Below, one piece after another: positions 2,258 to 39,225 of a stretch of DNA of 43,675 nt. How positions within the stretch are numbered: the stretch's first letter is position 1; each line of letters opens with the position of its first letter. This DNA comes from Dehalococcoidia bacterium (lineage in GTDB: Bacteria; Chloroflexota; Dehalococcoidia; Lucifugimonadales; UBA3495). Made by a program: the position numbers and the translations under genes. Location: assembly GCA_022450395.1 (NCBI GenBank), contig JAKUQE010000025.1:1-43675 (forward strand). Reading direction: 5' to 3'. Below the pieces are notes generated by a model, which saw only the letters and a list, made by a program, of their open reading frames with translations, did no database searches and had not been told where the DNA came from.

Positions 2258-4543
2258 TCAGCCCGCCGCAACACCTTCGGTCAATATAACGCCTCGCTCC
2301 AGCAGCCTGTCGAACTCCTGACCCATGCCAACTTCCTCTAATATCTCGCGGCCTTGGGCGCCGGGTTTGGGAGCGGGCCGGCCTGGCGCCACCGGTGTCC
2401 TCGACAGCCGGGGCGAGGGGCCGACGCCGGTTACCAACCCGATCTCGTCGTGTTCCCTGGTAAGGCTGAGACCATGGTCGATAACCCAAGGATCGTCCAG
2501 CAGCTCACTCAATGCGCTAACAACCCGGTGAGCGCCGACACCGGCATCGTTCAGCCGTTGGACCCAAGATTGGACGGTGCCAGCCTTGAAGCGTTCCTCC
2601 AGCGACTCGGTCAGCGCCTCTCCATGGAGAGCATCTATACTAGAAAGTCCGTCGACCGTGGCCAGGCGCGGCAGATCGCTCTCTTGAGCGCCGACGAAGA
2701 GCCAGCCGTCCTTGGCTTGATAGGCCCGGTGCAGCGGTCGGCCGCCCATCGAATCCATACCCCGGGGCTCGTCCCAAGATTTACCGTCGTAAAGTTGCAT
2801 ATAAGGTGATTGGTGGATCATGGCCGTGTAGGCCAGAGCCGAATCTACGTGCTGTCCTTGGCCAGTGCGCTCCCGGTGCAACAGAGCCAAGGCCACGCCG
2901 TATGCTCCCATGTACCCGGTACCGTAGTCGTTGATCGCATTGGGCTGGGTTGTGGGAGTACCATCGCCCCCCAAACGGCGGTCCATGCCGGTAGCGGCCT
3001 GGGCGAACTGTTCGTGACCCGGCCGGCCGGCCCAGGGACCCAGATGACCATAGGCATTGAGCGACACGTAGATGATATCCGGTTTTCGCTTGCGCAATTC
3101 TTCATAGCCCAGACCCAGGGCCTCAATCCTGCCCGCGCGGTAATTCTGGGCTACAACGTCGGTGTCTTCCAGCAAATGCCAGAATACGTCCAGACCCTCC
3201 TGGGTTTTCAGATCCAACAATATGCTGCGTTTCCCCCGGTTGACCTCATTGTGAGAAGAGACGGTGCTGCCACGGCTTGGGTTATCGATCTTGATAACGT
3301 CGGCGCCGTACTCGGCCAGCGTTCGGCCGCAGGTAGGCCCGGCGAGAATGATGCACAAGTCGAGCACTTTGACCCCTTCCAGAACGGAACGCATGGTTTT
3401 GTCAGCGGCCTGCGCCGGAGGAGCCTGTTGCCGAGACGCCACCTCTAAAAGAATCTCTTCCCGATCTTGGTCCGGCGCCGGCGCCGGGCGGCGCACTTCT
3501 CCAGGAGTAAGCGACAATCGGGCGTTTATGCCCGGCTGCAGCATCTTCCCGTAGGTAGGGTCCTGGACCTCTATCACCATTTTGGATTCCAAGGCGTGGG
3601 GATGGGAGAACCACTCTTCACTAGTGCGGCACATGGCGCACTCACTGCCTGCTCCGGCAACCAAGTCTTCCCACTCTTGGGCAGTGCGAGTTTTAAACAG
3701 CTCTTTCATCCGGCGCTCCAGTTCGTCAGCCAACTCAACCTCGCGGCCGAGCCGGTCGACGTCGGTCAAACCTTCGGCATGCCAGGAGGTAATGCCGGCA
3801 GCCTCGACGAACTGGTGAAGGTTCTGGTTACCAGAGCCTCCGAATCGCACCCAACGCCCATCCTTGCATTGGAAATGGCCGCCCCAGATCCGGCGCAAGT
3901 CCACACCGGTATCCTTTTCACTGTGAACTCTCATGCCGGCCCGGCCGATGGATGCAAAGGTAGCGTCGAACAAAGGTTCCTCTATGCGCTGTCCAACACC
4001 GTCCCGTTCCCGGGAGATTAGCGCCATTATCGTGGCCACCACGCCTTGGAAGGCCCCGTAATTGGAGGAGATCGGGATGGCGGTGTACACGGGATCTTGC
4101 GTTCCACTTTCCGACGGACGGGGCCGGTATGTAGCCGTAGCCGCGCCCAAGATTCCTTCCCAAGCAGGGGTGGCGGCGCGGGGGTCGTCGGAGGCGAATC
4201 CAGGCAGCGACAGGTAGACCAGGCGGGGGTTGGCCAGGGTCATGGCCTCCGCTCCCAAACCGAGCTTGTCCATGACTCCGGGGCGGAAGTTCTCCACCAC
4301 AACGTCGGCTCCTTGGATCAATCCTTTGGCCGTGGACAAGTCTCCGGCCTCCTTCAGGTCCAGCACGATGCTGCGCTTGCCCCGATTCCAGGTGGCGTTC
4401 GCCGGGGTTTTCCAGCGCGGCCCGCCGGGAGGGTCGACCTTAATCACATCGGCCCCCTGGTCCGCCATCAGCATTCCCACCAAGGGCCCAGCGATGTACT
4501 GCCCAAAGTCGATCACCTTAAATCCATCAAGCGCACCAGCCAT
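2258..4543 (-). CDS. Tandem two-domain CaiB/BaiF (family III) CoA-transferase
   Basis: A 761-residue protein made of two complete family III CoA-transferase domains, roughly residues 1-370 and 384-761, joined by an Ala/Gln/Pro-rich linker (about 371-383). Each half starts with the family motif: IDFGQYIAGP...GADVIKVDPPGG and LDLCIILAGP...GADVIKIDNPSRG. Enzymes of this family move CoA between carboxylic acids through a covalent Asp intermediate. Domain 2 keeps the Asp (INDYGTG, D539). In domain 1 the corresponding stretch reads SSNYGAF, with N161 where an acid is expected, so domain 1 may be catalytically silent or use another residue. The halves could form an internal pseudo-dimer in place of the interlocked homodimer. 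It shares an operon with the LLM gene 13 bases downstream. Acid substrate unknown. Confidence 0.93.
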   Translation of the reverse strand: MAGALDGFKVIDFGQYIAGPLVGMLMADQGADVIKVDPPGGPRWKTPANATWNRGKRSIVLDLKEAGDLSTAKGLIQGADVVVENFRPGVMDKLGLGAEAMTLANPRLVYLSLPGFASDDPRAATPAWEGILGAATATYRPRPSESGTQDPVYTAIPISSNYGAFQGVVATIMALISRERDGVGQRIEEPLFDATFASIGRAGMRVHSEKDTGVDLRRIWGGHFQCKDGRWVRFGGSGNQNLHQFVEAAGITSWHAEGLTDVDRLGREVELADELERRMKELFKTRTAQEWEDLVAGAGSECAMCRTSEEWFSHPHALESKMVIEVQDPTYGKMLQPGINARLSLTPGEVRRPAPAPDQDREEILLEVASRQQAPPAQAADKTMRSVLEGVKVLDLCIILAGPTCGRTLAEYGADVIKIDNPSRGSTVSSHNEVNRGKRSILLDLKTQEGLDVFWHLLEDTDVVAQNYRAGRIEALGLGYEELRKRKPDIIYVSLNAYGHLGPWAGRPGHEQFAQAATGMDRRLGGDGTPTTQPNAINDYGTGYMGAYGVALALLHRERTGQGQHVDSALAYTAMIHQSPYMQLYDGKSWDEPRGMDSMGGRPLHRAYQAKDGWLFVGAQESDLPRLATVDGLSSIDALHGEALTESLEERFKAGTVQSWVQRLNDAGVGAHRVVSALSELLDDPWVIDHGLSLTREHDEIGLVTGVGPSPRLSRTPVAPGRPAPKPGAQGREILEEVGMGQEFDRLLERGVILTEGVAAG

Positions 4544-13208: not shown

Positions 13209-14381
13209 TCAATAAATAACCTCTTCCTCAACCAGCCGGGCCACTTCCCGCCCGGACAGGCCTAACAGTTCCTGATAAACGTATTCGTTGTCTTGGCCCA
13301 AGACCGGCGCTTCGGTAAAAATCGGCTCCTCCCCGCCCTCGAACCGCCAAGGGAGGCCCGGCAATTCTCTCAGTTCTCCATCCCTTGTCCGAATCTGGCT
13401 GATGTACCCCACCTCTCTTAATTGCGGCTCGTTGAATACCCGGCACATGTCCAGAGACGGCCCGGAAGGAACCCCGGCCTCTTGTAACCGCCGCGTCGCC
13501 TCATGGTCGTCGAACAAGATCGTCCACTGGGTGATGGCGGCGTCCAGTTCATCCTGATGCTCGCGCCGCCCATCAGCATCGGCAAACCTGGGATCTGGCA
13601 GTAGGTCCGGCCTTTGGATAACACCGCAAAGCGACTGCCACTCCTCGTCGTTGGTTACCGCGATGGCAACCCAGCGGTCGGCGCCAACGCAGTGATAAAC
13701 GCCGTGGGGAGCATACCGGGCATCCCGGTTCCCCATGGTTTCCGGCAACCGCTGGTTCATCTGGTAGTCCAGGATCGCTCCCGGGATACCGGCGGTTAGC
13801 GCCTCGGCCATGGAGAAATCGATGTACTGCCCCTGCCCGGTCAATGCCCGATTATTCAGCGCGGCGGCGGTAACCATGGCCAACTCCATGCCCACCCAGG
13901 GGTCGGCCCACAATCCGCCGGGCACGGGTTCACTCTGGGGATTTCCCGATATGGAGTTCCAGCCGGTGTAGTGCTGCAACAGACTACCGTAAGCAACGTA
14001 GTCTTTATGCGGCCCCAAATGCCCCGTGCCAGATGAGGACACCATGATAATGTCAGGTCTGGCGGCGCTTGCGGCCTCATAGCTCAACCCGAGCCGATCT
14101 ATTACTCCTACGGCGAAATTCTCGATGACGACGTCGGAAACGGCGATCAACTGCTTGACCAGTTCCAATCCCTCTGGACTGGAAATATTCAGGGCGCAGT
14201 ACAGCTTGGACTGGTTGTATGCCTGAAATGCCGGCCCTCGGGTTGAGGGGTCAGGCCGGCGGGCGCTGCCCACCTTGATCACCTCGGCACCCATGGCGGC
14301 CATGAAGCGAGTCGCGGTAGGGCCAGCGATGATCCAACTGAGGTCTACGACTCTCACGCCGTCCAGAGGAAGATCACTCAT
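13209..14381 (-). CDS. CaiB/BaiF (family III) CoA-transferase
   Basis: A 390-residue family III CoA-transferase. The N-terminus LDGVRVVDLSWIIAGPTA and MGAEVIKV, and IIMVSSSGTGHLGP, are typical. The active-site Asp is present in GLWADPWVG (D160), corresponding to Asp169 of formyl-CoA transferase, so the enzyme should be active. Upstream, the neighbouring CoA-transferase stops only three bases before this ATG (stop at 14385-14387, start at 14381), which points to translational coupling and possibly a heteromeric enzyme. It ends in TAA at 13209 next to the repeat patch. A role in activating a catabolic organic acid by CoA exchange is inferred; the acid is unknown. Confidence 0.93.
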   Translation of the reverse strand: MSDLPLDGVRVVDLSWIIAGPTATRFMAAMGAEVIKVGSARRPDPSTRGPAFQAYNQSKLYCALNISSPEGLELVKQLIAVSDVVIENFAVGVIDRLGLSYEAASAARPDIIMVSSSGTGHLGPHKDYVAYGSLLQHYTGWNSISGNPQSEPVPGGLWADPWVGMELAMVTAAALNNRALTGQGQYIDFSMAEALTAGIPGAILDYQMNQRLPETMGNRDARYAPHGVYHCVGADRWVAIAVTNDEEWQSLCGVIQRPDLLPDPRFADADGRREHQDELDAAITQWTILFDDHEATRRLQEAGVPSGPSLDMCRVFNEPQLREVGYISQIRTRDGELRELPGLPWRFEGGEEPIFTEAPVLGQDNEYVYQELLGLSGREVARLVEEEVIY

Positions 14382-14384
14382 TAG

Positions 14385-15578
14385 TCATTCCAGTTTCCCT
14401 AGGATTGATTCGTTATGCTCGCCCAGAAGCGGGGCCGGACGTGCCGCCAGCGGTAGTTCAGTGTTTGAGAATTTGTAGGGCGCTCCCGGGTATTTCAGGG
14501 CCCCGGCGGCCGGATGCTCTATCTCGACAAAGAATTCCCGATGGGCCAGTTGCTCATCATTGAACAGGTCGAGGACGGTATTGACCGGGAAGCAGGGGAT
14601 CCGTTGCTCCTGCCCCCATCGGGCGATCTCATGTTTAGAATGATTGCTGCTCCACTCGCTCAGCAGTTTCCACAGCGAGGGAGAGTTCTTCTGCCGGGCG
14701 TCCCTGGTGGAATACCGGTCGTCGGCAGCCCAAGCCGGGTTGTCCATTATCCCTAGCCATCTTTCCCACTGCACATCCTCTCTGGGAGAGATGGCCACGT
14801 AGCCGTCATTACAGGGCAATATTCCGCCGATAGCGCTAACCATACCCGCGGCGGCCGCTTCTTCCACCTCTATCGCGTCTCTGGGAGGGGCAGGTCTGCC
14901 ATAGGCGCAACTGGCCAAGCCGCTGATGAGTTGATTGACCATCGCCTCGAATGACGAGATGTCGATGCGGCAACCCTTGCCGGTCATCCGCTTCCGGTAT
15001 AAGGCCATCAACGTAGCGGTTGCGGCGGCCATTCCGCCCACCAACTCAGCTTGATGCCCGCCCGCCCGGATCGGCGGGTTGCTATCTGGATCTTCGACCG
15101 CTCCCAGTAGCCCATGGGCGTGGCCGCTCATATGATACAAAACTAAGTCCGTCGCTTTGAAATCTTTGTATGGGCCTCGGTTGCCAAAGGGAGTGACCGA
15201 TGTGAAGATGAGGCCGGGATTGATGGTTTTCAAGGTTTCATAGCCTAAACCATGGGTTTCCAACGAGCCGGGAGGAGGGTTTTCGACAACGATGTCGGCG
15301 CCGGCCGCCAGGCGTTTGAAAGCTTCAGCCCCGTCCGGCGAAGCCAGGTCCAAAGAGACCCCATACTTGTTGGAGTTCATGGCCAGGAACAGGCCGCTCC
15401 TCTCCGGATGTGGGCTATCGCCGGGGAACGGCCCCATGCGTCGAGCCTCATCCCCGTCCGGAGGTTCCACCTTGATGACTTCCGCGCCCATTTGGGCCAA
15501 GATCTTCGCGCAATATGGCGCGGAGATACCTTGACCAACATCGAGAACCCGCACTCCTGGCAATAAACCGGCTACCAT
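14385..15578 (-). CDS. CaiB/BaiF CoA-transferase with Glu at the active-site position
   Basis: A 397-residue family III CoA-transferase with LLPGVRVLDVGQGISAPYCA, GAEVIKVEPPDGD and the SVTPFGNRGPYKDF segment. At the active-site position the sequence reads GGHQAELVGG, placing Glu178 where formyl-CoA transferase has Asp. Several subfamilies are known to carry Glu there, so activity is plausible. It is the first gene of a two-gene minus-strand unit, with the second CoA-transferase starting three bases after its stop. Its start lies 112 bases from the divergent CoA-transferase at 15691, sharing an intergenic control region. Domain order and length are complete. Confidence 0.92.
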   Translation of the reverse strand: MVAGLLPGVRVLDVGQGISAPYCAKILAQMGAEVIKVEPPDGDEARRMGPFPGDSPHPERSGLFLAMNSNKYGVSLDLASPDGAEAFKRLAAGADIVVENPPPGSLETHGLGYETLKTINPGLIFTSVTPFGNRGPYKDFKATDLVLYHMSGHAHGLLGAVEDPDSNPPIRAGGHQAELVGGMAAATATLMALYRKRMTGKGCRIDISSFEAMVNQLISGLASCAYGRPAPPRDAIEVEEAAAAGMVSAIGGILPCNDGYVAISPREDVQWERWLGIMDNPAWAADDRYSTRDARQKNSPSLWKLLSEWSSNHSKHEIARWGQEQRIPCFPVNTVLDLFNDEQLAHREFFVEIEHPAAGALKYPGAPYKFSNTELPLAARPAPLLGEHNESILGKLE

Positions 15579-15690
15579 ATACCAACCCTTGTTTCCGGAA
15601 TTACAATAAACGGCTAACGGCTGGGCCGTCAGACAGCAGGAATTGTACTTCTATCCGAATAAATGTTAAATGACAGTATAGTTGCGTGTT

Positions 15691-16881
15691 ATGGAAAGTA
15701 GCGACAAGATCCTCGGCGATATAACCGTGCTGGACTTGAGCCAGGGAGTGGCCGGGCCTTTTTGCGCCAAACTCCTGGCCGGACTAGGCGCTGAGGTCGT
15801 CAAGGTCGAGCCACCTGGAACGGGGGACCCCTCCAGACGGTCGGAGCCGTTCCTGGGCGGCCGCCCCGGCCCGGAGAATAGCGCTCTCTTCGCTTATCTC
15901 AACACCAGCAAAAAGAGCGTATCGCTGGACTTGGAGGTACCTCGCCAAGCCCAAGTTCTAAAGCGGCTGGCTCAAGACTGCGGGATCTTGGTAGAGAGCT
16001 TTGCCCCCGGCTACCTGGACTCGCTCGGACTGGGGTACGACACTCTGTCCGAAGCCGATCCCGGCCTGATCTATGTTTCCGTTACTCCCTTCGGACAGTC
16101 GGGACCTTACCGCGATTACAAGGGGTCGGACATTGTCGCCCAGGCCATCGGCGCGTTGATGTACACCATCGGCCTTCCGGACAGAGAACCGTTGAAAGTG
16201 GGAGGCGAGGCGGCCCTCTACACCACCGGCATAAGCGCCTTCTCCGCCACCATGCTAGCCCTTCACGTCAGAGACACCCAGGGCTTCGGGCAACACGTGG
16301 ACATCTCCGCGATGGACTGCATGACGGTGGCCCAGATACATTCCTCCATCCACTACCAGTTTGGACGCACCCCGGTGCGGCGGGAAACCAATCTGGTTCA
16401 GGCCAAGGACGGCTGGGTTAGCCCCGGACTGGACATCGGGGTGCAGGCGGGTACTTGGCCCAAGGTTTGCCAGTTGATGGGTGTCCCTGAATTGACCGAC
16501 GACCCCAGGTTCTCCACTCCGGAGGCGCGCCGGGCCAACCAGCAAGAATTGCTGGGCGTTGTGGGCGGTTGGGCCGCCACCAAACCCAAAGAGGAGATCT
16601 ACCACACGCTCCAAAGTCTTCGGACCATCACCGGCTACGTGGCCACGGTGGAAGACCTGCTGGTGTCCCGGCAATTTGCCCACCGGGAATTCTTCCGGAT
16701 CGTAGAAGACTCCGCGTTAGGAGATATCGTTCATCCCGGCGCTCCATTCCGGATCGACGACACGGGCTGGCAACTGTCCCGCGCCCCCCGTTTGGGCGAG
16801 CATAACGAGGAAGTGTTGGGCGGACGCCTGGGCTTGTCGCCAGAGGAATTGACCCAGCTATTCAGTGGGGACCGGGCATAA
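15691..16881 (+). CDS. CaiB/BaiF CoA-transferase-like protein lacking the usual catalytic acid
   Basis: A 396-residue family III CoA-transferase homologue with ITVLDLSQGVAGPFCA, GAEVVKVEPPGTG and VTPFGQSGPYRDY. The aligned active-site segment reads GGEAALYTTG, with Leu176 at the position of the nucleophilic Asp/Glu, so it may be non-catalytic or the alignment may hide a shifted acid (E173 is three residues away). I prefer the ATG at 15691 over a TTG nine bases upstream. No ribosome binding site precedes it, but TATAGT lies at 15677-15682, eight bases before the ATG, as in leaderless transcripts. Its TAA is followed after one base by the next CoA-transferase ATG, suggesting a two-subunit enzyme. 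Confidence 0.9.
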   Translation: MESSDKILGDITVLDLSQGVAGPFCAKLLAGLGAEVVKVEPPGTGDPSRRSEPFLGGRPGPENSALFAYLNTSKKSVSLDLEVPRQAQVLKRLAQDCGILVESFAPGYLDSLGLGYDTLSEADPGLIYVSVTPFGQSGPYRDYKGSDIVAQAIGALMYTIGLPDREPLKVGGEAALYTTGISAFSATMLALHVRDTQGFGQHVDISAMDCMTVAQIHSSIHYQFGRTPVRRETNLVQAKDGWVSPGLDIGVQAGTWPKVCQLMGVPELTDDPRFSTPEARRANQQELLGVVGGWAATKPKEEIYHTLQSLRTITGYVATVEDLLVSRQFAHREFFRIVEDSALGDIVHPGAPFRIDDTGWQLSRAPRLGEHNEEVLGGRLGLSPEELTQLFSGDRA

Positions 16882-16882
16882 A

Positions 16883-18163
16883 ATGGGCGCGGAGCGGAAC
16901 GATATCAAGCCAGCATTAGACGGACTGCGCGTTCTGGACCTGACCCAGGTGGCGGCAGGCCCCTACTCCACCATGATGCTTGCTTTCATGGGCGCTGAAG
17001 TGATTAAAGTGGAATCCTGCTCGCGCATGGACATCAACCGGGGCCGAGCCAGACCGGCGGCGGGCGACCCTCGGGTCTATCCCGGCGGCGACCCCGGCGA
17101 ACGTCCGTGGAACCGGGCCGCCCACCACGTCCACCGGAACATCAACAAGCTGTCGGTCACCCTGGATCTGAGCGCTCCCCGGGGGAAAGAGCTATTCCTT
17201 GACCTGGCACGGATCTGCGATGTGCTGGTGGAGAACTATCGAGCATCGGTCATGGACCGGCTGGGACTGGGATACGACGCAATCTCCCAAGCTAATCCTC
17301 AGATTATCTACGTGAAGATCAGCAGCCAGGGGGACAGCGGACCTGAAAGAGATTACGGGTCGCTGGGTTCCACTCTGGAACAGACAGCAGGCCTGGCATC
17401 GGTTACCGGATACGAGGGCGGGCCGCCGCTGATGACCAACGAGACCTACCCGGACCCGGTGGTGGGAATATTGGCGTTCGGCGCTTTGATGGCCGCTCTA
17501 CGGCGGCGCCGCGCCACGGGACGGGGATGTTTGGTGGACATGTCTCAAAGAGAGGTCACTTCAATGCTGTTGGGAGAGGCTTTCCTGGACTACTCAGCCA
17601 ACGGCAGAGTTGCGGGAACCATGGGCAACCGGCATCGGGACATGTCTCCCCATGGAGTCTATCCTTGCTTGGGTGACGACATGTGGGTGGCGATCTCGGT
17701 TAGTGCCGAAGATGAGTGGTTGGGGCTGTGCCGGTGCATCGGTCAGCCTCGATTGGCAAACGACTCCCGGTTCCAAGACCTGGAGTCGCGCCGGCTCAAC
17801 CAGGCGGAGCTGGACCAGATAATCTCTACCTGGACCCTGGAAAGGGACCATTATCAGGTCATGCACATGCTCCAGGCGCACGGTGTACCCACCGGAGCGG
17901 TACTCAAGGCCAATGAGACCCTAGCTGACCCGCACCTGGAGGCCAGGGGATTCTGGGACGTGGTGGATCACCCGGAGGCTGGCGCCTACAAGCAAACGAC
18001 CACCCCTTGGGTACTATCCAAGAGCCCCAGACTACCGGCCGTCGCCGCTGCCGGGCTTGGTGAGCACAATTTCCAGGTGTTCAACGGATTGTTGGGCCTC
18101 TCGCCGGCCGAGATAGACGATCTGGTGGAAAGCGGCATAACCGGTGACACGCCGGCGGAGTAG
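16883..18163 (+). CDS. CaiB/BaiF (family III) CoA-transferase
   Basis: A 426-residue family III CoA-transferase with LDGLRVLDLTQVAAGPYS, GAEVIKVES and IIYVKISSQGDSGPERDY. The catalytic Asp is present in TYPDPVVG (D191). An insertion of roughly 30 residues after the KVES motif, rich in Arg, Gly and Pro and ending near HHVHRNINK, makes it longer than its neighbours. The ATG at 16883 begins one base after the stop of the preceding CoA-transferase; a GTG at 16865 would overlap it. The pair therefore mirrors the divergent pair on the other strand: one member with a clear Asp and one with an altered active site. Substrate unknown. Confidence 0.92.
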   Translation: MGAERNDIKPALDGLRVLDLTQVAAGPYSTMMLAFMGAEVIKVESCSRMDINRGRARPAAGDPRVYPGGDPGERPWNRAAHHVHRNINKLSVTLDLSAPRGKELFLDLARICDVLVENYRASVMDRLGLGYDAISQANPQIIYVKISSQGDSGPERDYGSLGSTLEQTAGLASVTGYEGGPPLMTNETYPDPVVGILAFGALMAALRRRRATGRGCLVDMSQREVTSMLLGEAFLDYSANGRVAGTMGNRHRDMSPHGVYPCLGDDMWVAISVSAEDEWLGLCRCIGQPRLANDSRFQDLESRRLNQAELDQIISTWTLERDHYQVMHMLQAHGVPTGAVLKANETLADPHLEARGFWDVVDHPEAGAYKQTTTPWVLSKSPRLPAVAAAGLGEHNFQVFNGLLGLSPAEIDDLVESGITGDTPAE

Positions 18164-23912: not shown

Positions 23913-24574
23913 GTGGTCGTTAGCCGAGCAAAGACGATGAAGATCGCGAGCACTCTAGGCTGGATCGCGATAGTGCTTGCCGTGCTCCTGATGCTCTTTT
24001 CCGGGGCGAATCGCCTGGGGTCATTGACCCAGGATGCGGCAACGGCTGACGCTCTGGGCGTTCGCTATATCGAGCACCCGTGGGTCTCGCTCTTCCACAT
24101 TGTTCCGGGGGTGCTGTTTCTCACGTTTGCTCCCCTGCAGTTCGTCGCCCGGATTCGGCGGCGGAGAATCAGCATTCACCGTGGCTCGGGGCGGGTGCTC
24201 GCCACCTTGGCCGCGATCAGCGCCGTGCTCGCGCTCGTCGTCAACTTCCTCTTCCTGCCTTCGGCGGCATCAGCACACAGTCAGCAGTAATCTTCGTGAG
24301 CGTACTCCTTCTCTTTTCACTTTCTATGGCGATTCGTCACATCATTAGGAAAGAGGTGCGCCAACATCGTGAGTGGATGATCCGAACGTTCGCCGCGGCC
24401 ATGAGTGTGGCCACCCAGCGGGTCTTCCTTATTCTACTTACGTCGCTGACAGGCCTTAGCTTGGAGGAGGTATTTGGCGCCGCCTTTTGGCTGGGTATCG
24501 GCGTCAATCTGGTAGTAGCGGAGGTGTGGATCAACCACACGCGCGCGTCAAGCCGGTCTGCGGAAAGAGCTTAG
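23913..24574 (+). pseudogene. DUF2306 membrane protein, frameshifted
   Basis: A polytopic membrane protein of the DUF2306 family split over two reading frames. The first part (GTG at 23913, GGAGG six bases upstream) covers the initial helices, including HIVPGVLFLTFAPLQFVARIRRRR, and ends at a stop at 24288-24290. The second part continues in another frame from about 24260 with AIRHIIRKEVRQHREWMIRTF and AEVWINHTRAS, the normal C-terminal half, and stops at 24574. Together they would give about 220 residues, the usual family size. The frames differ by a net one-base loss or two-base gain near 24250-24290. A sequencing error in this one place would explain it equally well. Confidence 0.75.
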
Positions 24575-26009: not shown

Positions 26010-26446
26010 TTACCACCCTCCCCTCGAGCAGGTTGGATTATGTACACCAACTGGACCCGGCCGGCGGCTCACTAGATTAACGGCCTGTCAATCAAAGGGA
26101 AGGGATCGGGCCAGAAGATAATGTTGAGCCTGCTGGGGCTCATCAAAATAGCGATGTATATTTAACTACGAATTCCGTGTGCTTACATACATATACTGTC
26201 AATAACAGCGGAATAATTAACGATAACTTGCCATTATATTGATGGGCAATCTACTGTATTGAAGTTCTAACGAAATCAATCCCGCATATTCCTTGTTCAT
26301 CCGTCGTAACATCTTAGAATCACAGGATTGGGTATGTATTATTTACTTCCATGATTGATCATGGGTTCTCAACCCCAAAAAGCTCGCAGCTAACACCTAG
26401 ATCGATCGGCGAGTATACCGCTGGCGATCACCGAGGTTGGATCGAG
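26010..26446. other. AT-rich divergent intergenic region
   Basis: This stretch between the alpha/beta hydrolase and the dioxygenase gene is clearly more AT-rich than its surroundings and holds no convincing gene. It carries a short inverted repeat TGAGCC/GGCTCA at 26125-26142 and the palindrome at 26349-26364. An in-frame ATG at 26351 exists but lacks a ribosome binding site. Control elements for the divergent genes are likely to lie here; I cannot point to a firm promoter. Confidence 0.5.
26349..26364. promoter_or_regulatory. Palindrome upstream of the dioxygenase gene (possible operator)
   Basis: CCATGAT and ATCATGG form a perfect seven-base inverted repeat separated by TG, about 80 bases before the preferred dioxygenase start. 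A dimeric regulator could bind here. It overlaps the alternative ATG at 26351, which is one reason to prefer the later start. Chance occurrence cannot be excluded. Confidence 0.3.
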
Positions 26447-28819
26447 ATGGATAATGGAGAACAAGCAGTCCGGGCAGAAGCCCAAGAGTTACTCGAACAG
26501 CGGAAATATCGAGACGCGCTGGATCTGCTGAAAAATCGCCTCCCTCAGGAGACTGACGGAGAAGGACATGCGTTGCTGGGCCTCGCCCACTATCACCTGG
26601 AAGAATACGCATCGGCTGTTGAGCAATACGCTGTGGCCCTGCAACTTGATGCTGGTAATCAAGAGTGGCAGGAGATGCTGGATGCTGCGAGAGCGAATAC
26701 CGTCGCTGAGATTCAAGTACCGGTTCCCGATGTTTACTTCTTCGATCGCGACAAGTTGTTGGCAGAGCCTATCGTGCCAGACGGAGCATTGCCGCCACGG
26801 CCGCTAATAGTTCGCGGCCCCGGACCGTTAAAGCGATTAAAGGTGATCCTCGAAACCTTGATAGGCGCCATATTAGGCTTCATTACGGATGTCCTGATCC
26901 AACTTGCCGGAAAGGTGATTGGATATCGCGGAAAAGTGTGGACCGATTGGTACAACAGGTGGTATCTGATCGGGACATTTACGTTGGCGTATCTGCGAGT
27001 CGTGCTCACCAAAAACAACCTCAAGGATACCTACCCCAAAGGTACCCTTATCGGGTTCCAAACACCCGGTCAATCGCCTCCTGAGGGTGTCACACACTTT
27101 CGCACGGCAGACGGTAGTTGGAACAACTTGGCCGACCCAAAGGAAGGGGCCGCGGGCACCCGTTTCACCCGAAATGTAGAGAATGACGCGATCCATCCGG
27201 AGACCGGGAATATCCTTATGTCCCCGAATCCCCGGGAAGTAAGCTTGCAGTTTTTAACGCGCCAAGGGGAGATGAAAACAATTCCCTTTCTCAACCTCTG
27301 GGCAGCCGCATGGATCAATTTCCAAAACCATGACTGGATCGATCACGGCCAGACTCTGACCGATGAATACCATGAGATCCCGCTACCGGCGGACGACCCT
27401 GCCCGGGAGAGATTTCGGCAAACCAAGATGCTACTCCCAAAAAGTCAGCCGGATCCGACACGACGACCCGGGCAAGAGGAAACTCCGATCTCGTTCATCA
27501 ACGAGGTGACACATTGGTGGGATGCCTCGCAGATCTACGGCAGCGATCAGGAGACAGTTGACCGGCTCCGTAGCCATGACGATGGCAAGTTAAGAATCAA
27601 CGCCGATGGTTCTCTACCGGTCGGTCAAAACGGAGTTGAGGAGACCGGATTCACTCGAAATTGGTGGATCGGGCTGACGTTGCTTCACACGTTGTTTGCC
27701 AGAGAGCACAACGCCATATGTGACAAATTAAAACAAACACATCCAGATTGAGATGATAATCGCCTCTTCAATGTGGCCCGCCTTATCAACGCGGCGCTGA
27801 TAGCCAAAATTCACTCTATCGAGTGGACACCCGCGATTTTGCCCAATCGTGCCCTACACTCGGGCTTGCAAGCCAATTGGTTTGGTCTCTTGACCAATAT
27901 CTTTAAGACCGGCCGTCAAAGGAAAACGTTGGCTGAATTCAACGTGCGAAATCCTGAGATGGGCGGACTAGTCGGGAACCGGCTTAATAAGAATGGTCAC
28001 CCTTTTGGCTTCGCCGAGGAATTCGTGGAAGTCTATCGTCTGCATTCGTTATTGCCCGAGACGATCGATATTCGGCGGATCGCCAATCAAGAACAGATCG
28101 AGAAAATACCATTTGTCGAAACGCGCCAGGCAGGTTCGCCCAAGTTGACCGAAAAAGTCGGTCTGCTCGACCTTTCCTACTCCTTTGGCCGACAGCTTCC
28201 GGGGAAACTGGTGTTGAACAATTTTCCGAAGTTCATGCAAGAGATGAGTGTTCCAGGTAACCCTTTATTCGACTTGGGCGCCGTGGACATCCTAAGGGCG
28301 CGCGAGCGGGGCGTGCCTAGATACAACAAATTCAGGCGCCAGTTAACTCTCAATCCGATTCGCGCCTTCGAAGACCTCACCGGCGACGTGAAGGTTGTGG
28401 AGCGACTCAAAGAAGTGTACGAAGACAAGCCCGAAGACATAGAAAAGTTGGACCTGATGATCGGCACTCTTGCAGAAGAACATCGGCCAAAGGGGTATGG
28501 ATTCGGCGAAACCATGTTCCAGATCTTTATTCTCAACGCCAGCCGAAGACTTCAGGCGGACCGCTTCTATACCACTAACTACAACGAGGAAACATATTCC
28601 AAAGAAGGGCTTAAGTGGATCGACGATTCCAGTTTCAAAACCGTTTTGTTGCGCCACTATCCAGAGCTTGGCGAAACCGGGTTAGAGAACGTCAAAAACG
28701 CCTTTGAACCTTGGGATACCGGAGAACGACTGGATAAGAAACGCCACCCTATCCGTGAATATGACCGGGAGTTGAAGCCCGATCCGATGCTCGGTGACTC
28801 GTATCGGCAATCACGGTGA
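26447..28819 (+). pseudogene. Alpha-dioxygenase/cyclooxygenase-like heme peroxidase, interrupted by an in-frame TGA
   Basis: A heme-dependent fatty-acid dioxygenase homologue of the animal-peroxidase superfamily. About 100 N-terminal residues form TPR-like helices (ALLGLAHYHLEEYASAVEQY), then the dioxygenase body begins. The distal heme ligand is in NFQNHDWIDHG (codon at 27329), followed by the family stretch THWWDASQIYGS. A TGA at 27749-27751 interrupts HPD-stop-DDNRLFNVARLINAA; the same frame continues without further stop to 28819 and contains AKIHSIEWTPAIL and VYRLHSLLP, with the catalytic Tyr (codon 28034) and proximal His (codon 28043) spaced Y-x-x-H as in cyclooxygenases. In relatives the interrupted codon is, to my recollection, often Trp, so TGG to TGA is likely. 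Neither fragment alone holds both heme histidines. I prefer the start at 26447, preceded by GAGG, over 26351. The P450 gene lies downstream. Confidence 0.85.
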
Positions 28820-28958
28820 CCACTTTATGACCGGGATGATTCTGGCTTCGTAAGTGCGGGCCGCTTACTTAGCGCGTTGTCACACCAGGCCCGCCGATAG
28901 AAGCTGGTGGTCTACGAATCGGGACCCACCTTAACCGGGCAAAGGAGTAAAGCAACCG

Positions 28959-30257
28959 ATGGCCAACGAAACCGGCAAAACCTTACCCTCGACCGGGTTG
29001 ATGGATCTTATTCGACTGATCTGTGGCCTCCTCCGCGCTTTGATGCCCAATCGCTACTTCTTGAATCCCGGTTTGGTCCTAAGTGATTGGATCAGGGATC
29101 TAGCCCGGCGCCGCTCGACCGAGGGCATCATCCTCAACTTTGGATTCAGAAGGTTTTTGCTGGTAACGGGAAGAGACCTGTCACGACACATCTTGAATCA
29201 AAGTCCAAGCACCAACACTTATGCGGCAGGACCGGGCAAAGTAGCGGCCGTGTCTTTCCTGGCGGAGCAATCGCTCACTCTTAGCCATGACGAGAAATGG
29301 GACAAGCTGCGACCGTTAAATGAGCAAACACTGTCAACCGGTGGCAGCCCTGATCTCCAACAGGCTGCACTGTTCCAAGTCCAGGTGGCATTTGCCCAAC
29401 CTGTATCCAGCATTGATGACATTCGAGACCGTATGGGCAGGGTCATGCTGGGGGTTGTATTTGGCGGTGCTCCGCCACAACTGGCTCAAGACATACAAGT
29501 CTTGTTTGGCTATGTCCAATCCCTGCCGAGAAGAAAATTGTTAGGATGGACCCAAAGAGGCCGCCGCGAACGGTTTTATGGGTCGATTCGGCAGTCGTGG
29601 AACGAGGCGCAAGGAACGAGTCTGCTTGCCAGAGCGCACACCTTTTCTCGAGGGGGAAATTTCGACGAAGATCAACTGCTGCAGCAGATCCCCCACTGGA
29701 TGTTCACGTTTACCGGGTCGGGCACCGATCTGCTATCGAGGACATTGGCCATGTTGGGGTCAAGGCCGGAGGTTGCCGAGCAGGTGCGACAGGAGATTAA
29801 CGCTGCTGGTCCCCTGGACCAAGCGATCTCCATCAGCCGCCTAAACTTCGTGGAAGCATGCCTATTGGAGACATGCCGCCTGTTCCCGCCGGTTACCCGT
29901 ACTTCCCACGTAGCTCCCCAAGGAGATACGTTCGACGGCGTCTCAATACCGGCCGGCTTGGAGATATTGCACTACTTCCTGATCAGCCTCCGCGACACTT
30001 CGGTGGACCCAAGCGCTAACTACTTTGAACCGGACAAATGGCTCGACCCGGGAAACGATAGGCGCTCGGTGTACCCTAATATCTTTCTAAGCGGCGCGCG
30101 AGCTTGCCCCGGTGAAAGTCTGATTCTTTTCGTCTGTAAAGCCGCGATTATATTTCTCTACGGAGTGAAAAATGAGATGCTAAGCATCCGTGCGCTCACA
30201 ACGGACCCTCTGTCTTTCCCATTCCCGAAAGGGACACCTCGTTTTCGATTATCTTGA
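28959..30257 (+). CDS. Cytochrome P450 with atypical I-helix
   Basis: A 432-residue cytochrome P450. The K-helix ExxR is ETCR (E304, R307) and the heme loop FLSGARACPGE gives the axial Cys383. The I-helix reads FTFTGSGTDLL (about 249-259); aligned without gaps against the usual AGxDTT, the acid and Thr needed for O2 activation are replaced by Gly253 and Ser254. P450s that rearrange lipid hydroperoxides or endoperoxides rather than hydroxylate, such as CYP74, CYP8A1, CYP5A1 and fungal linoleate diol synthases, typically have altered I-helices, so a hydroperoxide isomerase role is inferred. A hydrophobic N-terminal segment (LMDLIRLICGLLRALM) may touch the membrane. AAAGGAG lies upstream of the ATG. 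It starts 139 bases after the dioxygenase stop on the same strand. Confidence 0.92.
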   Translation: MANETGKTLPSTGLMDLIRLICGLLRALMPNRYFLNPGLVLSDWIRDLARRRSTEGIILNFGFRRFLLVTGRDLSRHILNQSPSTNTYAAGPGKVAAVSFLAEQSLTLSHDEKWDKLRPLNEQTLSTGGSPDLQQAALFQVQVAFAQPVSSIDDIRDRMGRVMLGVVFGGAPPQLAQDIQVLFGYVQSLPRRKLLGWTQRGRRERFYGSIRQSWNEAQGTSLLARAHTFSRGGNFDEDQLLQQIPHWMFTFTGSGTDLLSRTLAMLGSRPEVAEQVRQEINAAGPLDQAISISRLNFVEACLLETCRLFPPVTRTSHVAPQGDTFDGVSIPAGLEILHYFLISLRDTSVDPSANYFEPDKWLDPGNDRRSVYPNIFLSGARACPGESLILFVCKAAIIFLYGVKNEMLSIRALTTDPLSFPFPKGTPRFRLS

Positions 30258-30350
30258 CGTGGAACTACCGAGTCTGACCCATTAAAATAGGGCCGTTCGG
30301 CTTGGTAAGCGGGCTGGTACCGGCATCAATTTTTCACTTATTGAGGATTC

Positions 30351-30836
30351 TTGATAATCATCCTGATGGGCGTCTCCGGAGCTGGAAAGACCACCGTGGG
30401 CAAACTTCTTGCCCTTGACCTGGGTTGGAGTTTCTACGAAGGGGACGATCTCCACCCTCGGTCCAACGTGGTTAAGATGGCCCAAGGGATTCCCCTAACC
30501 GACGAAGACCGCCAGCCTTGGCTTGGCCGGATACGCCTCCTCATAGACGATCTTGTCTCCCGTGGCGAGAGCGGTGTGATCGCTTCCTCCGCCTTGAAAC
30601 AAGCATACCGGGACCAACTTGTTGGGGACGAAGATGATGTTAAGCTTGTTTACCTCAAGGGGGAGTTCCAGCTCATCTCGGAAAGGCTGGAGGGTCGGCA
30701 GGACCACTTCATGAAGAGCGGCCTGCTTGAAAGCCAGTTTAGCGCGATGGAAGAGCCGGATGGAGCAGTTAACATGGACGTAACCTGGGAGCCGAAATCG
30801 ATCGTAGTGGCGGTGAAGCAGGCTTTAGGACTGTAA
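30351..30836 (+). CDS. gntK: Gluconokinase-like P-loop kinase
   Basis: A 161-residue kinase of the GntK group, which phosphorylates gluconate to 6-phosphogluconate with ATP. The Walker A loop MGVSGAGKTTVGK is at the N-terminus, followed by FYEGDDLHPRSNVVKMAQGIPLTDEDRQPWL, the typical gluconokinase sequence, and ASSALKQAYRDQL. Length is normal. The start appears to be a TTG at 30351, with GAGGA only three bases before it; no upstream ATG is in frame. It stands between the P450 and the desaturase on the same strand but its sugar-acid function has no evident link to lipid oxidation. Confidence 0.88.
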   Translation: MIIILMGVSGAGKTTVGKLLALDLGWSFYEGDDLHPRSNVVKMAQGIPLTDEDRQPWLGRIRLLIDDLVSRGESGVIASSALKQAYRDQLVGDEDDVKLVYLKGEFQLISERLEGRQDHFMKSGLLESQFSAMEEPDGAVNMDVTWEPKSIVVAVKQALGL

Positions 30837-30901
30837 GCCTCAACCGCCCGGACTTATCGGAATTCCGCGCCCGGCCGGGGCTGGCTCGCGACTTTCCGCT
30901 C

Positions 30902-30935
30902 TAATATGCGCCCTTCCGGCATCATATTAAAGGGC
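30902..30935 (+). other. Interlocked inverted repeats upstream of the desaturase
   Basis: Two inverted repeats overlap in the order a-b-a'-b': TAATATG (30902-30908) with CATATTA (30923-30929), and GCCCTT (30910-30915) with AAGGGC (30930-30935). As RNA this order would be a pseudoknot; as DNA it may be nested operators, since a candidate promoter lies immediately downstream. The gap 30837-31038 contains no gene. Confidence 0.35.
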
Positions 30936-30940
30936 AAGCG

Positions 30941-30949
30941 TGATAGAAT
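30941..30949 (+). promoter_or_regulatory. Possible extended -10 promoter for the desaturase
   Basis: TGATAGAAT matches an extended -10 element (TG, one base, TAGAAT). A good -35 is not seen, as is common for extended -10 promoters. Transcription would begin near 30957, about 80 bases before the desaturase ATG, placing the inverted repeats at 30902-30935 just upstream of the promoter. Confidence 0.35.
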
Positions 30950-31038
30950 CGTGTTGCGCAAAGCGAATCGTTTTCCCTTCGACTCACATTCGTTTCGGGA
31001 CATACCGGCTAGCAAGATAGAGGTGACTCCTTAATAAC

Positions 31039-32055
31039 ATGGATTACCTAACTCTTAGAAAAGAAGTTGTCGAGGCAGGGCTCCTGAACCGGCAATACGG
31101 CTACTACGCCCTAAAGTTCATCATTACCTTCGGAACATTAGCCTTAAGTTACGTTCTGCTTGCCACGGTCGATAGTTTTGTTTTTCAGCTCTTCAATGCC
31201 GCGTTCTTGGCCTTCGCCATAGTACAAGTCGGGTACATGATGCATGACGCCATCCACATGCAGATCTTTAGCGACAAGTGGAAGAACGATTTTGCCGGCA
31301 TACTGACTGGCGGCTTGACCGTTAATGTCAGTAGTTCTTGGGGAGACGCGCACCTTCTACATCATAAAGCGCCCAATCATGTTGATCTCGATCCGGACGT
31401 CAATATGCCGATATTAGCGTTTTCGGAAGAGCAAGCTTTGCAGAAAAAAGGGCTCGCTAAGTTCTTGGTCAAGCATCAAGCATTTATCTGGTTTCCGTTG
31501 TTAACGTCCGTCGCCTTCATCATGCGTTTCGGAAACACCGTTACGTTGGTAAAAAACATTCGCGGTAAAAGATGGAAGTTTCATCTCACGGAAGCTGTAT
31601 TCCTCTTAGCAGGTTGCGCACTGTATTTTGGGGTGATTCTCAATTCTTTAAGTTTCACACAGGCGATCGTGTTCCTGTTAGTAAGCAATGTTCTTACCGG
31701 CTTGTACATGGGCACAAGTTTTGCGACGAACCATAAGGCCATGCCGCTGATGAAAGGAAGGTTGGATTTCCTGCACATGCAGGTGCTTACCGCCAGAAAC
31801 GTAAAGAGCAGCCCATTTACGGATATATGGTATGGCGGCCTGAATTACCAGATAGAGCATCACCTGTTTCCTTCCATGCCGAGAAACAACTACGGCAAAG
31901 CCAGCAAGATTATCAAGACCTTCTGCCGTCAGCAATCGATCGAACACTGCGAAGCAGGCGTTTTTCAAACCTACAAGGATATCTTGGGGCACTTTCATCG
32001 GATCGGCGCGGTTCTTCGGAACCCTGACGCAACTCGGGCAACTACCGCGGGTTAA
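31039..32055 (+). CDS. Membrane fatty-acid desaturase (QxxHH front-end type)
   Basis: A 338-residue integral membrane di-iron desaturase. The three histidine boxes are HDAIH (69-73), HLLHH (105-109) and QIEHH (271-275). Gln in place of the first His of the third box is the mark of front-end (delta-5/delta-6 type) acyl-lipid or acyl-CoA desaturases and relatives. No cytochrome b5 domain is fused, so a separate electron donor is needed. Hydrophobic segments occur near residues 25-65, 150-165 and 185-225. An AGAGGTG lies about 14 bases before the ATG. It follows the dioxygenase-P450 pair with one gene in between and could supply polyunsaturated acyl chains to them (inference). Its TAA abuts the next ATG. 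Confidence 0.92.
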   Translation: MDYLTLRKEVVEAGLLNRQYGYYALKFIITFGTLALSYVLLATVDSFVFQLFNAAFLAFAIVQVGYMMHDAIHMQIFSDKWKNDFAGILTGGLTVNVSSSWGDAHLLHHKAPNHVDLDPDVNMPILAFSEEQALQKKGLAKFLVKHQAFIWFPLLTSVAFIMRFGNTVTLVKNIRGKRWKFHLTEAVFLLAGCALYFGVILNSLSFTQAIVFLLVSNVLTGLYMGTSFATNHKAMPLMKGRLDFLHMQVLTARNVKSSPFTDIWYGGLNYQIEHHLFPSMPRNNYGKASKIIKTFCRQQSIEHCEAGVFQTYKDILGHFHRIGAVLRNPDATRATTAG

Positions 32056-36267: not shown

Positions 36268-39225
36268 TTATTCGGCTAGGCCGTTTTGAGAGGCGTATCC
36301 GGCGGCTTCGGTACGGTTGGACGAGCCGGTCTTGGCCAGGATGTTGCTGACGTCGCGTATTACGGTGTTGGGGCTTATTACCAGTTCCACGGCGATGTCG
36401 GCGTTGCTCTTTCCAGCAGCCACCAGCCCCAATACCTCAACCTCCCGTTGGGTCAGTCCGTCGGGATAGGCCGGAGCTGTCGATGGCTGGGCCTGAACCA
36501 ACTCTTGCCGAGAGGCGACCCGCTCCATCAGGGGCCGCATCCCCAATTCGGTCGAGATAGCCAGAGCCTCGTCCAGCAGAGCAATGGACTTGGCTCGGTC
36601 TCCGGAACCATCCCTGAGAGACAAGGTGTCCGCATAATCGCAGCAGGTCCAGGCCAGCTCGGGCCGGTAGCCGGCCCTGTGGCAGAAGGCCAAGCCGTCC
36701 TCAAAGTGGGCAGCCGCTTGGTCCAGATTGCCCATGGTTTGAGACAGGAGGCCGAGAATACGATCGATCGATATTGCCGTCAATATCATCGTGCCTCGCA
36801 GCTCTATAAGGTCAGCGTAATGCTCTTCCGCCGCGGCTTGGTCGCCCCTTTGCACGGCCACGAGTGCCAAAGCAGATCTGGCCTGTCTTGACCCGTTGGG
36901 GAGGGCAGACTGTACTGAGACAATCGCCTTGGCCGCTTCGGCTATTTCCAACCTGTCGGGGATACCGGTGATGCGGGTGATGGCGGCGATCGCCACAGGC
37001 ACCCTTGTAGACGCTAACATTTTGTACAGCCCCGCCCCACTCATCGCCTCGAGGAGCCGCTCCAGGTAAACCTTCCCCTGAGTGGACTCGCCCGTCTCAT
37101 CCTCCAACAGAACCCGAGGTGATAGCAGCATCGGAGTCAGGGGAGATATCTCCAGGCCCCGGTCGCTATATTCCCGCCCTGCGATCCAGTCGCCCTCAAG
37201 ACATGACGAGGACGTAATCGGTGTTAAGGCATTACTGGCGTACAGTCGAGGTGTATTTCGCTTCTCTGTCAGATCTCGCAAGAACAATGCGTGGGGGCGG
37301 GCCGCATCAAGCTCACCCAAATAAAGCAAACTCATCGCTGTCCACCAACGAGAGGTCCTAATGGAGTTTTCTTCATCGGTGGCCAATGCGATGGCCTTCA
37401 GCCCATTGTCTACACACTCTTGCAGTTGGAAGTGTTGCCCGCTAAGGACTGTCAGATTCGTTAGGGTATGTACTTCCAAAGGCACGTCCCCCTCACGCCT
37501 GGCGATGGATATAGACCGCCCAAAGGCCTGTTGTGCGCCTTCGTAGTCACCTTCGTCGATCCCAATAAATCCACCTTAGACACAGAGGATGCGCCCAGCC
37601 TCGTGGGAATCGGCCGGGACCAAAGTAAGAGCACGGGCTAAGAGTCCGGTAATTCCTGGAATCCGATAAGATGGAGTCACGATTGGGAACAGGGCGGCAG
37701 CTACCGCCTGCGCGACATTCCCAGCCTCGGCGTAGTAGTCGAAGGCGCGGCTTAGAATGGCGAACGCTTCCACAAGCTGTTGCCCCGAGACGGTGTTGGA
37801 CCGGGCCCGCGCCAGTCCGAATAGCAGATCCGCTGCCTCTTCATCGCAAGCCGCGTCCGTTCCGGACAGAGCTATGTCCCGGGCCGCCAAGCCCTTTTCA
37901 AAATATGTCAGTGCGTCATCGTAGGCATAGGAGGCTAGCGCCTGTTGCCCAGCCATCAACGAGTAGCGGACCAACTTTTCGGGACCGGTCAACGTCTGTG
38001 CTTCGGCGAAATGGTAGGCCAACTCCTCAGCGTGGACATCGGCGTCGTTTCCGTACAACGTCTCAAGACCCTCAGCAATCCGCGCGTGCAGCCGCACCCT
38101 GCGTGTAGTGGATAGTTCCTCAAATAGGGTTTCCTGAATCAGGGCGTGTGTGAATTGATAGAGTCCCACTGAATTAGGCAGTTCCTCGATCAATTGGACT
38201 TCCACCGCCTCGTCCATTGCCGCCAGCAACTGGTCTTCAGTGATGTCGCTCATTAATGAATTCAGCAACCTGAATTCGAACTCCTGGCCGACAACCGAGG
38301 CGGTGGTCAACATCTGGTTGCAGTGATCCGAAAGCCTGTTGAGACGCCTGCCAATGGCATCGCGAACTCCTTCGGGAATGATGCTGGCCCACCCGGGGTC
38401 TTCGGTGATATTCTCCAGCGTAACGTGTCGTGTTACCTCACCAACAAAAAACGGGTTGCCATCGGTGCGATTATGTATGGCTTCCGCAGCTTCAAGAGTC
38501 AGATCTATCCCCGCGCTACCTTGGACCAACTCCCCCACCTCCTGCTGGGTCAATCCATCAAGCTGCACTCTGTGGAACAGTTGCTCCCGGACCAGAGCGC
38601 CAAGGGTCTGGGACAAGGGATGGCGCCGGGAAACCTCGATATCCCGGTAGGCGCCAACAAGCGATATCTTGCTGGTTCCAATCTCTCGAGCCACGAACTC
38701 CAGAAGTAGCAAGGTCGAACGGTCGGCCCAGTGAAGGTCGTCCAGGACGACCATGAGGGGCTGACGTTGAGCCACGTTTTTAAGGAAGATGGTTATGGAG
38801 TCGAAGAGACGGAAACGGGCCGCATCAGGCTCCAATGCCGGAGGTGTTTCCGCGCCAGGCAATTTACTCCGTATCTCGGTAATGATCTCGCCGATGGCGG
38901 CGGCTCCGAGCCCCATCTCCTCGACGAGTTGTTCCGGAGCAGTCTGCTGAACGTAGGTACGCATGGATTGGACCCATGGCCAATAGGGCGGCGCTCCTTC
39001 TTCTTAGTGGCACCGTCCCCATAAATTCTGGGCTCCTCGTTGCTCGGCCAACACGCCCAACTCCTGGGCGGTACGGGTCTTGCCGATGCCCGGCTCACCG
39101 GCCAGCATGACCAACCGTCCCTGGCCGGACAGGGCGTCATTCAGGGCTGACGTCAGCTCAGCCATCTCCCGCCGACGGCCTACGAAGACCTGGGCTATAT
39201 CGCTGTTGGGACGAATCTCTGCCAT
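36268..39225 (-). pseudogene. LuxR-type large ATP-binding regulator (LAL/AAA16), broken by two in-frame TAA codons
   Basis: A 986-codon frame for a LAL-type transcription regulator. Order: FVGRRREMAELTSAL and the Walker A GEPGIGKTR (codons about 15-50), AAA16 ATPase core with LMVVLDDLHWADRSTLLLLEF, a long TPR-like helical sensor, and a C-terminal LuxR helix-turn-helix (LTQREVEVLGLVAAGKSNADIAVELVISPNTV). TAA occurs at codon 74 (39004-39006) between WGRCH and EEGAPPYWPWVQ, and at codon 550 (37576-37578) between GRILCV and GGFIGIDEGDYEGAQ. All three pieces lie in one frame and the flanking residues match the family, so these are simple nonsense changes (probably from Glu and Tyr codons). Recent loss of function is likeliest; assembly error is possible. 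No ribosome binding site is evident at 39225. Confidence 0.85.

Follow-up and report, generated by a model that had tools for sequence, protein, structure and literature searches.

The window analysed here, a stretch of 43,675 nucleotides from a Dehalococcoidia bacterium (GCA_022450395.1, contig JAKUQE010000025.1), contains four genes on the forward strand that encode a heme peroxidase, a cytochrome P450, a gluconokinase and a membrane fatty-acid desaturase (Table 1). These four identities, already proposed in a first-pass annotation of the sequence, are borne out by Pfam and TIGRFAM profile matches and by motifs. For the presumed dioxygenase frame, the assignment as a heme peroxidase with a Y-x-x-H motif (Y562/H565) stood, but not its description as a single open reading frame (ORF), as an in-frame TGA lies within it; the start chosen in that annotation (Met33) is plausible. 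The dioxygenase (DOX) and the P450 are separate ORFs with a gap of 139 bp. Elsewhere, the window contains five genes for family III CoA-transferases (positions 2258-4543 and 13209-18163), a membrane-protein gene on the plus strand (23913-24574; DUF2306-like by eye) with an apparent frameshift near 24285, and a gene on the minus strand (36268-38964) for an AAA_16/TPR/LuxR-type regulator, which an in-frame TAA at ~37576 interrupts.

Table 1. Genes and sequence features of the dioxygenase-P450 locus (positions in the window).
Feature	Position	Strand	Remarks
TPR-alpha-dioxygenase gene	26351..28819	+	Pfam An_peroxidase, E 8.5e-112; split by one in-frame stop
Possible dioxygenase start	26447	+	In-frame Met33 of the longer ORF
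TPR-like helical repeats	26468..26704	+	Residues ~40-118; weak TPR_16 match; AF2 helices
In-frame TGA	27749..27751	+	Trp467 in relatives; TGG in closest relative
Y-R-L-H motif: radical tyrosine Y562, proximal heme ligand H565	28034..28045	+	Alignment to rice alpha-DOX
Cytochrome P450	28959..30257	+	I-helix FTFTGSGTD; Gly253-Ser254 replace the acid-alcohol pair
Gluconokinase (GntK/IdnK type)	30351..30836	+	TIGR01313 above its cut-off
Membrane fatty-acid desaturase, QIEHH motif	31039..32055	+	PF00487, E 6.4e-35

Judged by match scores and residues, the heme protein is a plant-type fatty-acid alpha-dioxygenase (alpha-DOX). Plant alpha-DOX are its best solved relatives, and the match to the rice enzyme (E 1.2e-113, 40% identity) is far stronger than that to lactoperoxidase (E 1.5e-29), contrary to a grouping with non-lipid peroxidases; COX-2 matched with E 1.3e-18. 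Six residues of rice alpha-DOX are kept in the window protein, namely H157 (H327, the distal heme histidine), H311 (H488), T316 (T493), Y379 (Y562), H382 (H565), and R559 (R733). As the PDB chain 4kvl has Phe at the position of the radical tyrosine, the tyrosine of the window protein was checked directly. In an alignment of 92 proteins, the residues corresponding to H311, Y379, and H382 are invariant, R559 is found in 90 and T316 in 89, while the distal histidine is kept in 80 and varies in 12. In plant alpha-DOX, H311, T316, and R559 are the carboxylate-binding residues. Since their equivalents are kept, the predicted product is a 2-hydroperoxide or a shortened aldehyde, not an 8- or 10-hydroperoxide; alpha-DOX oxygenate fatty acids at C2 (PMC13049297). 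With the plant and cyanobacterial enzymes (rice 4kvj, Arabidopsis 4hhr, CalDOX, LepDOX) the window protein shares the whole catalytic domain including YxxH, the distal histidine and the H311/T316/R559 set, but it adds an N-terminal extension of ~200 residues with TPR-like helices, and operon partners. The TPR_16 match of this extension is weak and below the Pfam cut-off, and the AF2 helices reach a pLDDT of ~60-91 depending on the block; of the full-length AF2 model, which is poor (mean pLDDT 45.8), only the TPR part was used. Chloroflexota is missing from the five bacterial phyla that are named in a published tree of alpha-DOX (PMC8720084).

The in-frame TGA separates two ORFs (26351-27751 and 27773-28819). 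Both relatives that were aligned first have Trp at this position, and no internal stop occurs there in the other DOX loci. A variant genetic code that reads TGA as Trp was rejected, because other genes in the window terminate in TGA. As dN/dS is ~0.1 both before and after the stop, indicating equal constraint on both sides, the nonsense codon should be either recent or an assembly error, and it may leave the pathway inactive in the window genome. Decay of the window copy into a pseudogene locus, which would be compatible with sequential action of alpha-DOX and P450 in intact relatives, is possible but doubtful: besides the TGA in DOX, the window holds two more disrupted genes (near 24285 and at ~37576), but the constraint before and after the stop and the intact P450 frame argue against decay, and in a metagenome-assembled genome (MAG) of 359 contigs such disruptions may be assembly errors.

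The P450 of the window matches PF00067 (E 1.7e-20 over residues 234-388) and contains the ExxR motif (E304, R307) and Cys383. Its predicted model has a full P450 fold resembling BM3 and others, and structure searches with this model matched P450s in general, which allowed no assignment to a family. The Gly-Ser in the I-helix is common to the P450s of the window, L049 and L034, whereas ordinary Chloroflexota P450s have D/E-T. This replacement (Gly253-Ser254) suggests that the enzyme uses a ready-made peroxide rather than activating O2. Arg-Pro at the acid-alcohol position is a hallmark of the CYP152 peroxygenases, from which the window P450 differs by its Gly-Ser. The P450s of the DOX clusters fall into three divergent types with 13-28% identity between types; the representatives from L091 and L057 show matches to CYP120 and CYP152, and the window P450 is a type separate from them (17-20% identity). 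The P450 of L077 retains Glu-Thr, and thus not every DOX-adjacent P450 looks peroxide-driven. This retention, the BM3-like fold and the possibility that Ser254 could partly stand in for Thr are in line with a conventional monooxygenase, which would act on fatty acids or aldehydes with O2 and NAD(P)H, independently of any hydroperoxide, and draw on redox partners encoded elsewhere in the genome. We regard this as rather unlikely, as Gly replaces the acid of the pair in the P450s of the window, L049, and L034, and no redox partner gene adjoins the window P450.

DOX was present in 2 of 50 genomes of the window's family, the window genome included, and a scan of a genome collection yielded 80 DOX loci. 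The 47 TPR-alpha-DOX loci among which neighbors were counted (a tree group of 45 rows including the window, plus two fragments) are spread across many phyla. The first-pass annotation had proposed looking for conserved adjacency in relatives, and the dioxygenase-P450 pairing indeed recurs. G150 and the window genome are the two among 400 Chloroflexota genomes in which a P450 of the window type (E<=1e-35) was detected, adjoining DOX in both, and a third such P450, 49% identical, again adjoins DOX in the MAG locus L049. In G150, where the P450 is frameshifted, and in L049 this gene lies upstream of DOX, in the window downstream. A different P450 type directly follows DOX in L077, and another is located about three genes downstream in L057 and L091, after a RoxA-like diheme cytochrome. 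In each of these last three genomes the cluster P450 is the only one found; the chance of this is ~1e-8, a rough guide only, as it takes genes to be placed at random and relies on guesses of gene number based on genome size. In the DOX tree, which was built without COX and Ppo sequences, the window protein is sister to that of L048 (support 100), and a six-member group including the window (support 93) has a P450 in five clusters and a catalase-like gene in one. For the gluconokinase and the desaturase, no match was obtained near other dioxygenase genes. The former had been set aside from the outset as not fitting the idea; the proposed role of the latter as supplier of a polyunsaturated substrate is unsupported, and the desaturase was rejected as part of the unit. 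Mere neighborhood of DOX and P450 with no metabolic link, caused by joint horizontal transfer, would agree with the patchy distribution of DOX in the family, but it is very unlikely in view of the swapped gene order, the different P450 types and other partners beside the same DOX, and the three genomes whose sole P450 lies in the cluster.

In L048 of genome G045, the locus whose DOX is most closely related to that of the window (75% identity), a catalase-like gene stands where the P450 would be. The window-type P450 is absent from G045, and the catalase-like homolog was found only in this one of the seven genomes searched, a small sample with several incomplete genomes. The protein itself had no Pfam match, while its relatives give weak catalase matches. 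On the same strand within <=300 bp of the 47 TPR-alpha-DOX genes, a hidden Markov model (HMM) scan recorded lipoxygenases (12), P450s (4), catalase-like proteins (4), aldehyde dehydrogenases (2), one RoxA-like protein and one GMC oxidoreductase. These counts are lower bounds, because the scan missed a catalase-like gene that tblastn placed 278 bp downstream of DOX in L063; many of the loci are without a recognized partner. Patatin-like phospholipases adjoin DOX in L075 and L076. The lipoxygenase, patatin phospholipase, and aldehyde dehydrogenase neighbors fit lipid oxidation. In the window genome, a Pfam search for lipoxygenases gave no match, but it also failed to match its controls and thus carries no weight; a DOX-adjacent mycobacterial lipoxygenase used as query detected none in G000, G045, and G150, a search that barely recovered the Nitrosomonas enzyme and can miss distant ones.

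Further observations concern the surroundings of individual DOX genes. In six loci from Mycobacterium and Mycolicibacterium (L066, L073, L078, L085, L089, L119), a lipoxygenase gene directly follows DOX at 18-31 bp, and a large gene of one family lies upstream on the opposite strand, whose product in L066 and L085 has Pfam guanylate cyclase and AAA_16 domains. In Nitrosomonas marina (L056, L090), an aldehyde dehydrogenase gene is found just upstream of DOX, and genes for a lipoxygenase, a DyP-type peroxidase and catalase-like proteins are located further out. A plasmid of Calothrix PCC 6303 (L140, possibly the source of CalDOX) encodes a shorter alpha-DOX, after which come genes for a GMC oxidoreductase and a patatin. 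On a Streptomyces NBC_00069 plasmid (L138), a P450 lies two genes away from a shorter alpha-DOX, and the gene between them encodes an alpha/beta hydrolase.

The close analogy to the fungal linoleate diol synthases (Ppo proteins) drawn in the first-pass annotation found no support. Those enzymes are fusions that form mid-chain hydroperoxides and have HxC in their P450 part (PMC13049297), and near the heme their SRS4 contains Asn in the LDS and EAS types and Thr, Ile, or Val in the AOS types (PMC13049297). The likeness of the locus to Ppo, DOX-AOS, and EAS lies in the combination of a dioxygenase of the peroxidase-COX superfamily with a P450; these are, however, fused diheme proteins, whereas the window encodes the two enzymes separately. 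Moreover, its P450 has ARACPG, i.e., RxC, at the heme thiolate instead of HxC, and FTFTGSGTD is devoid of the Asn, which speaks against the LDS and EAS types only. A Ppo-like pathway, in which DOX would form an 8- or 10-hydroperoxide from a polyunsaturated substrate supplied by the desaturase and the P450 would isomerize it, is thus highly improbable despite the adjacency of the same two enzyme classes and the nearby desaturase, given the conserved alpha-DOX carboxylate residues, the deviating P450 signatures and a desaturase that is not conserved. Closer precedents are the plant and cyanobacterial alpha-DOX (PMC8720084) and the 10S-DOX of Nostoc punctiforme, from which a catalase-related hydroperoxide lyase, encoded by a separate gene, takes over the product (PMC13049297), although the latter is a mid-chain 10S enzyme whereas here an alpha-DOX has P450s or lipoxygenases among its neighbors.

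We give about even credence to a bacterial alpha-DOX and a P450 that would act in sequence, the P450 consuming the DOX product. According to this model, the free fatty acid would be held by H488, T493, and R733, and the heme-generated tyrosyl radical (Y562) would take hydrogen from its C2. Addition of O2 at this carbon would yield a 2-hydroperoxy fatty acid, which could lose CO2 to give an aldehyde one carbon shorter (Cn-1). The adjacent P450 would then take the 2-hydroperoxide or the aldehyde; most likely it is peroxide-driven, transforming the hydroperoxide with no need of a redox partner, and would take the place occupied in the closest relative by a catalase-like heme protein. The C2 chemistry, the flow of substrate between the enzymes and the peroxide-driven mechanism are what we infer from the sequences. 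The conserved pairing supports a dioxygenase with a partner that would consume hydroperoxide or aldehyde. Aldehyde formation by alpha-DOX requires no partner, which counts against sequential action, as do the three divergent P450 types, the partnerless TPR-alpha-DOX loci, the stop in the window copy and the frameshift in G150.

The recurrence of the pairing in unrelated bacteria points to a putative undescribed bacterial pathway for oxidized lipids (oxylipins). The part of the open literature that was covered, with subscription papers mostly and preprints wholly outside it, contained no description of TPR-alpha-DOX or of its P450 and lipoxygenase neighborhoods. Quite tentatively, and with the odds clearly against it, one may go further and propose modular bacterial oxylipin operons built on TPR-alpha-DOX, in which unrelated partners (several types of P450, catalase-like proteins, lipoxygenases) interchange, with the window-type P450 as a new, self-sufficient class that transforms 2-hydroperoxides. 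If true, enzymes that make and process fatty-acid hydroperoxides would be organized in operons in many phyla, with Mycobacterium, Nitrosomonas, Bacteroidota, and Chloroflexota among the bacteria concerned, and would offer testable pairs for the study of bacterial oxylipin or aldehyde production and of the handling of peroxides by P450s.
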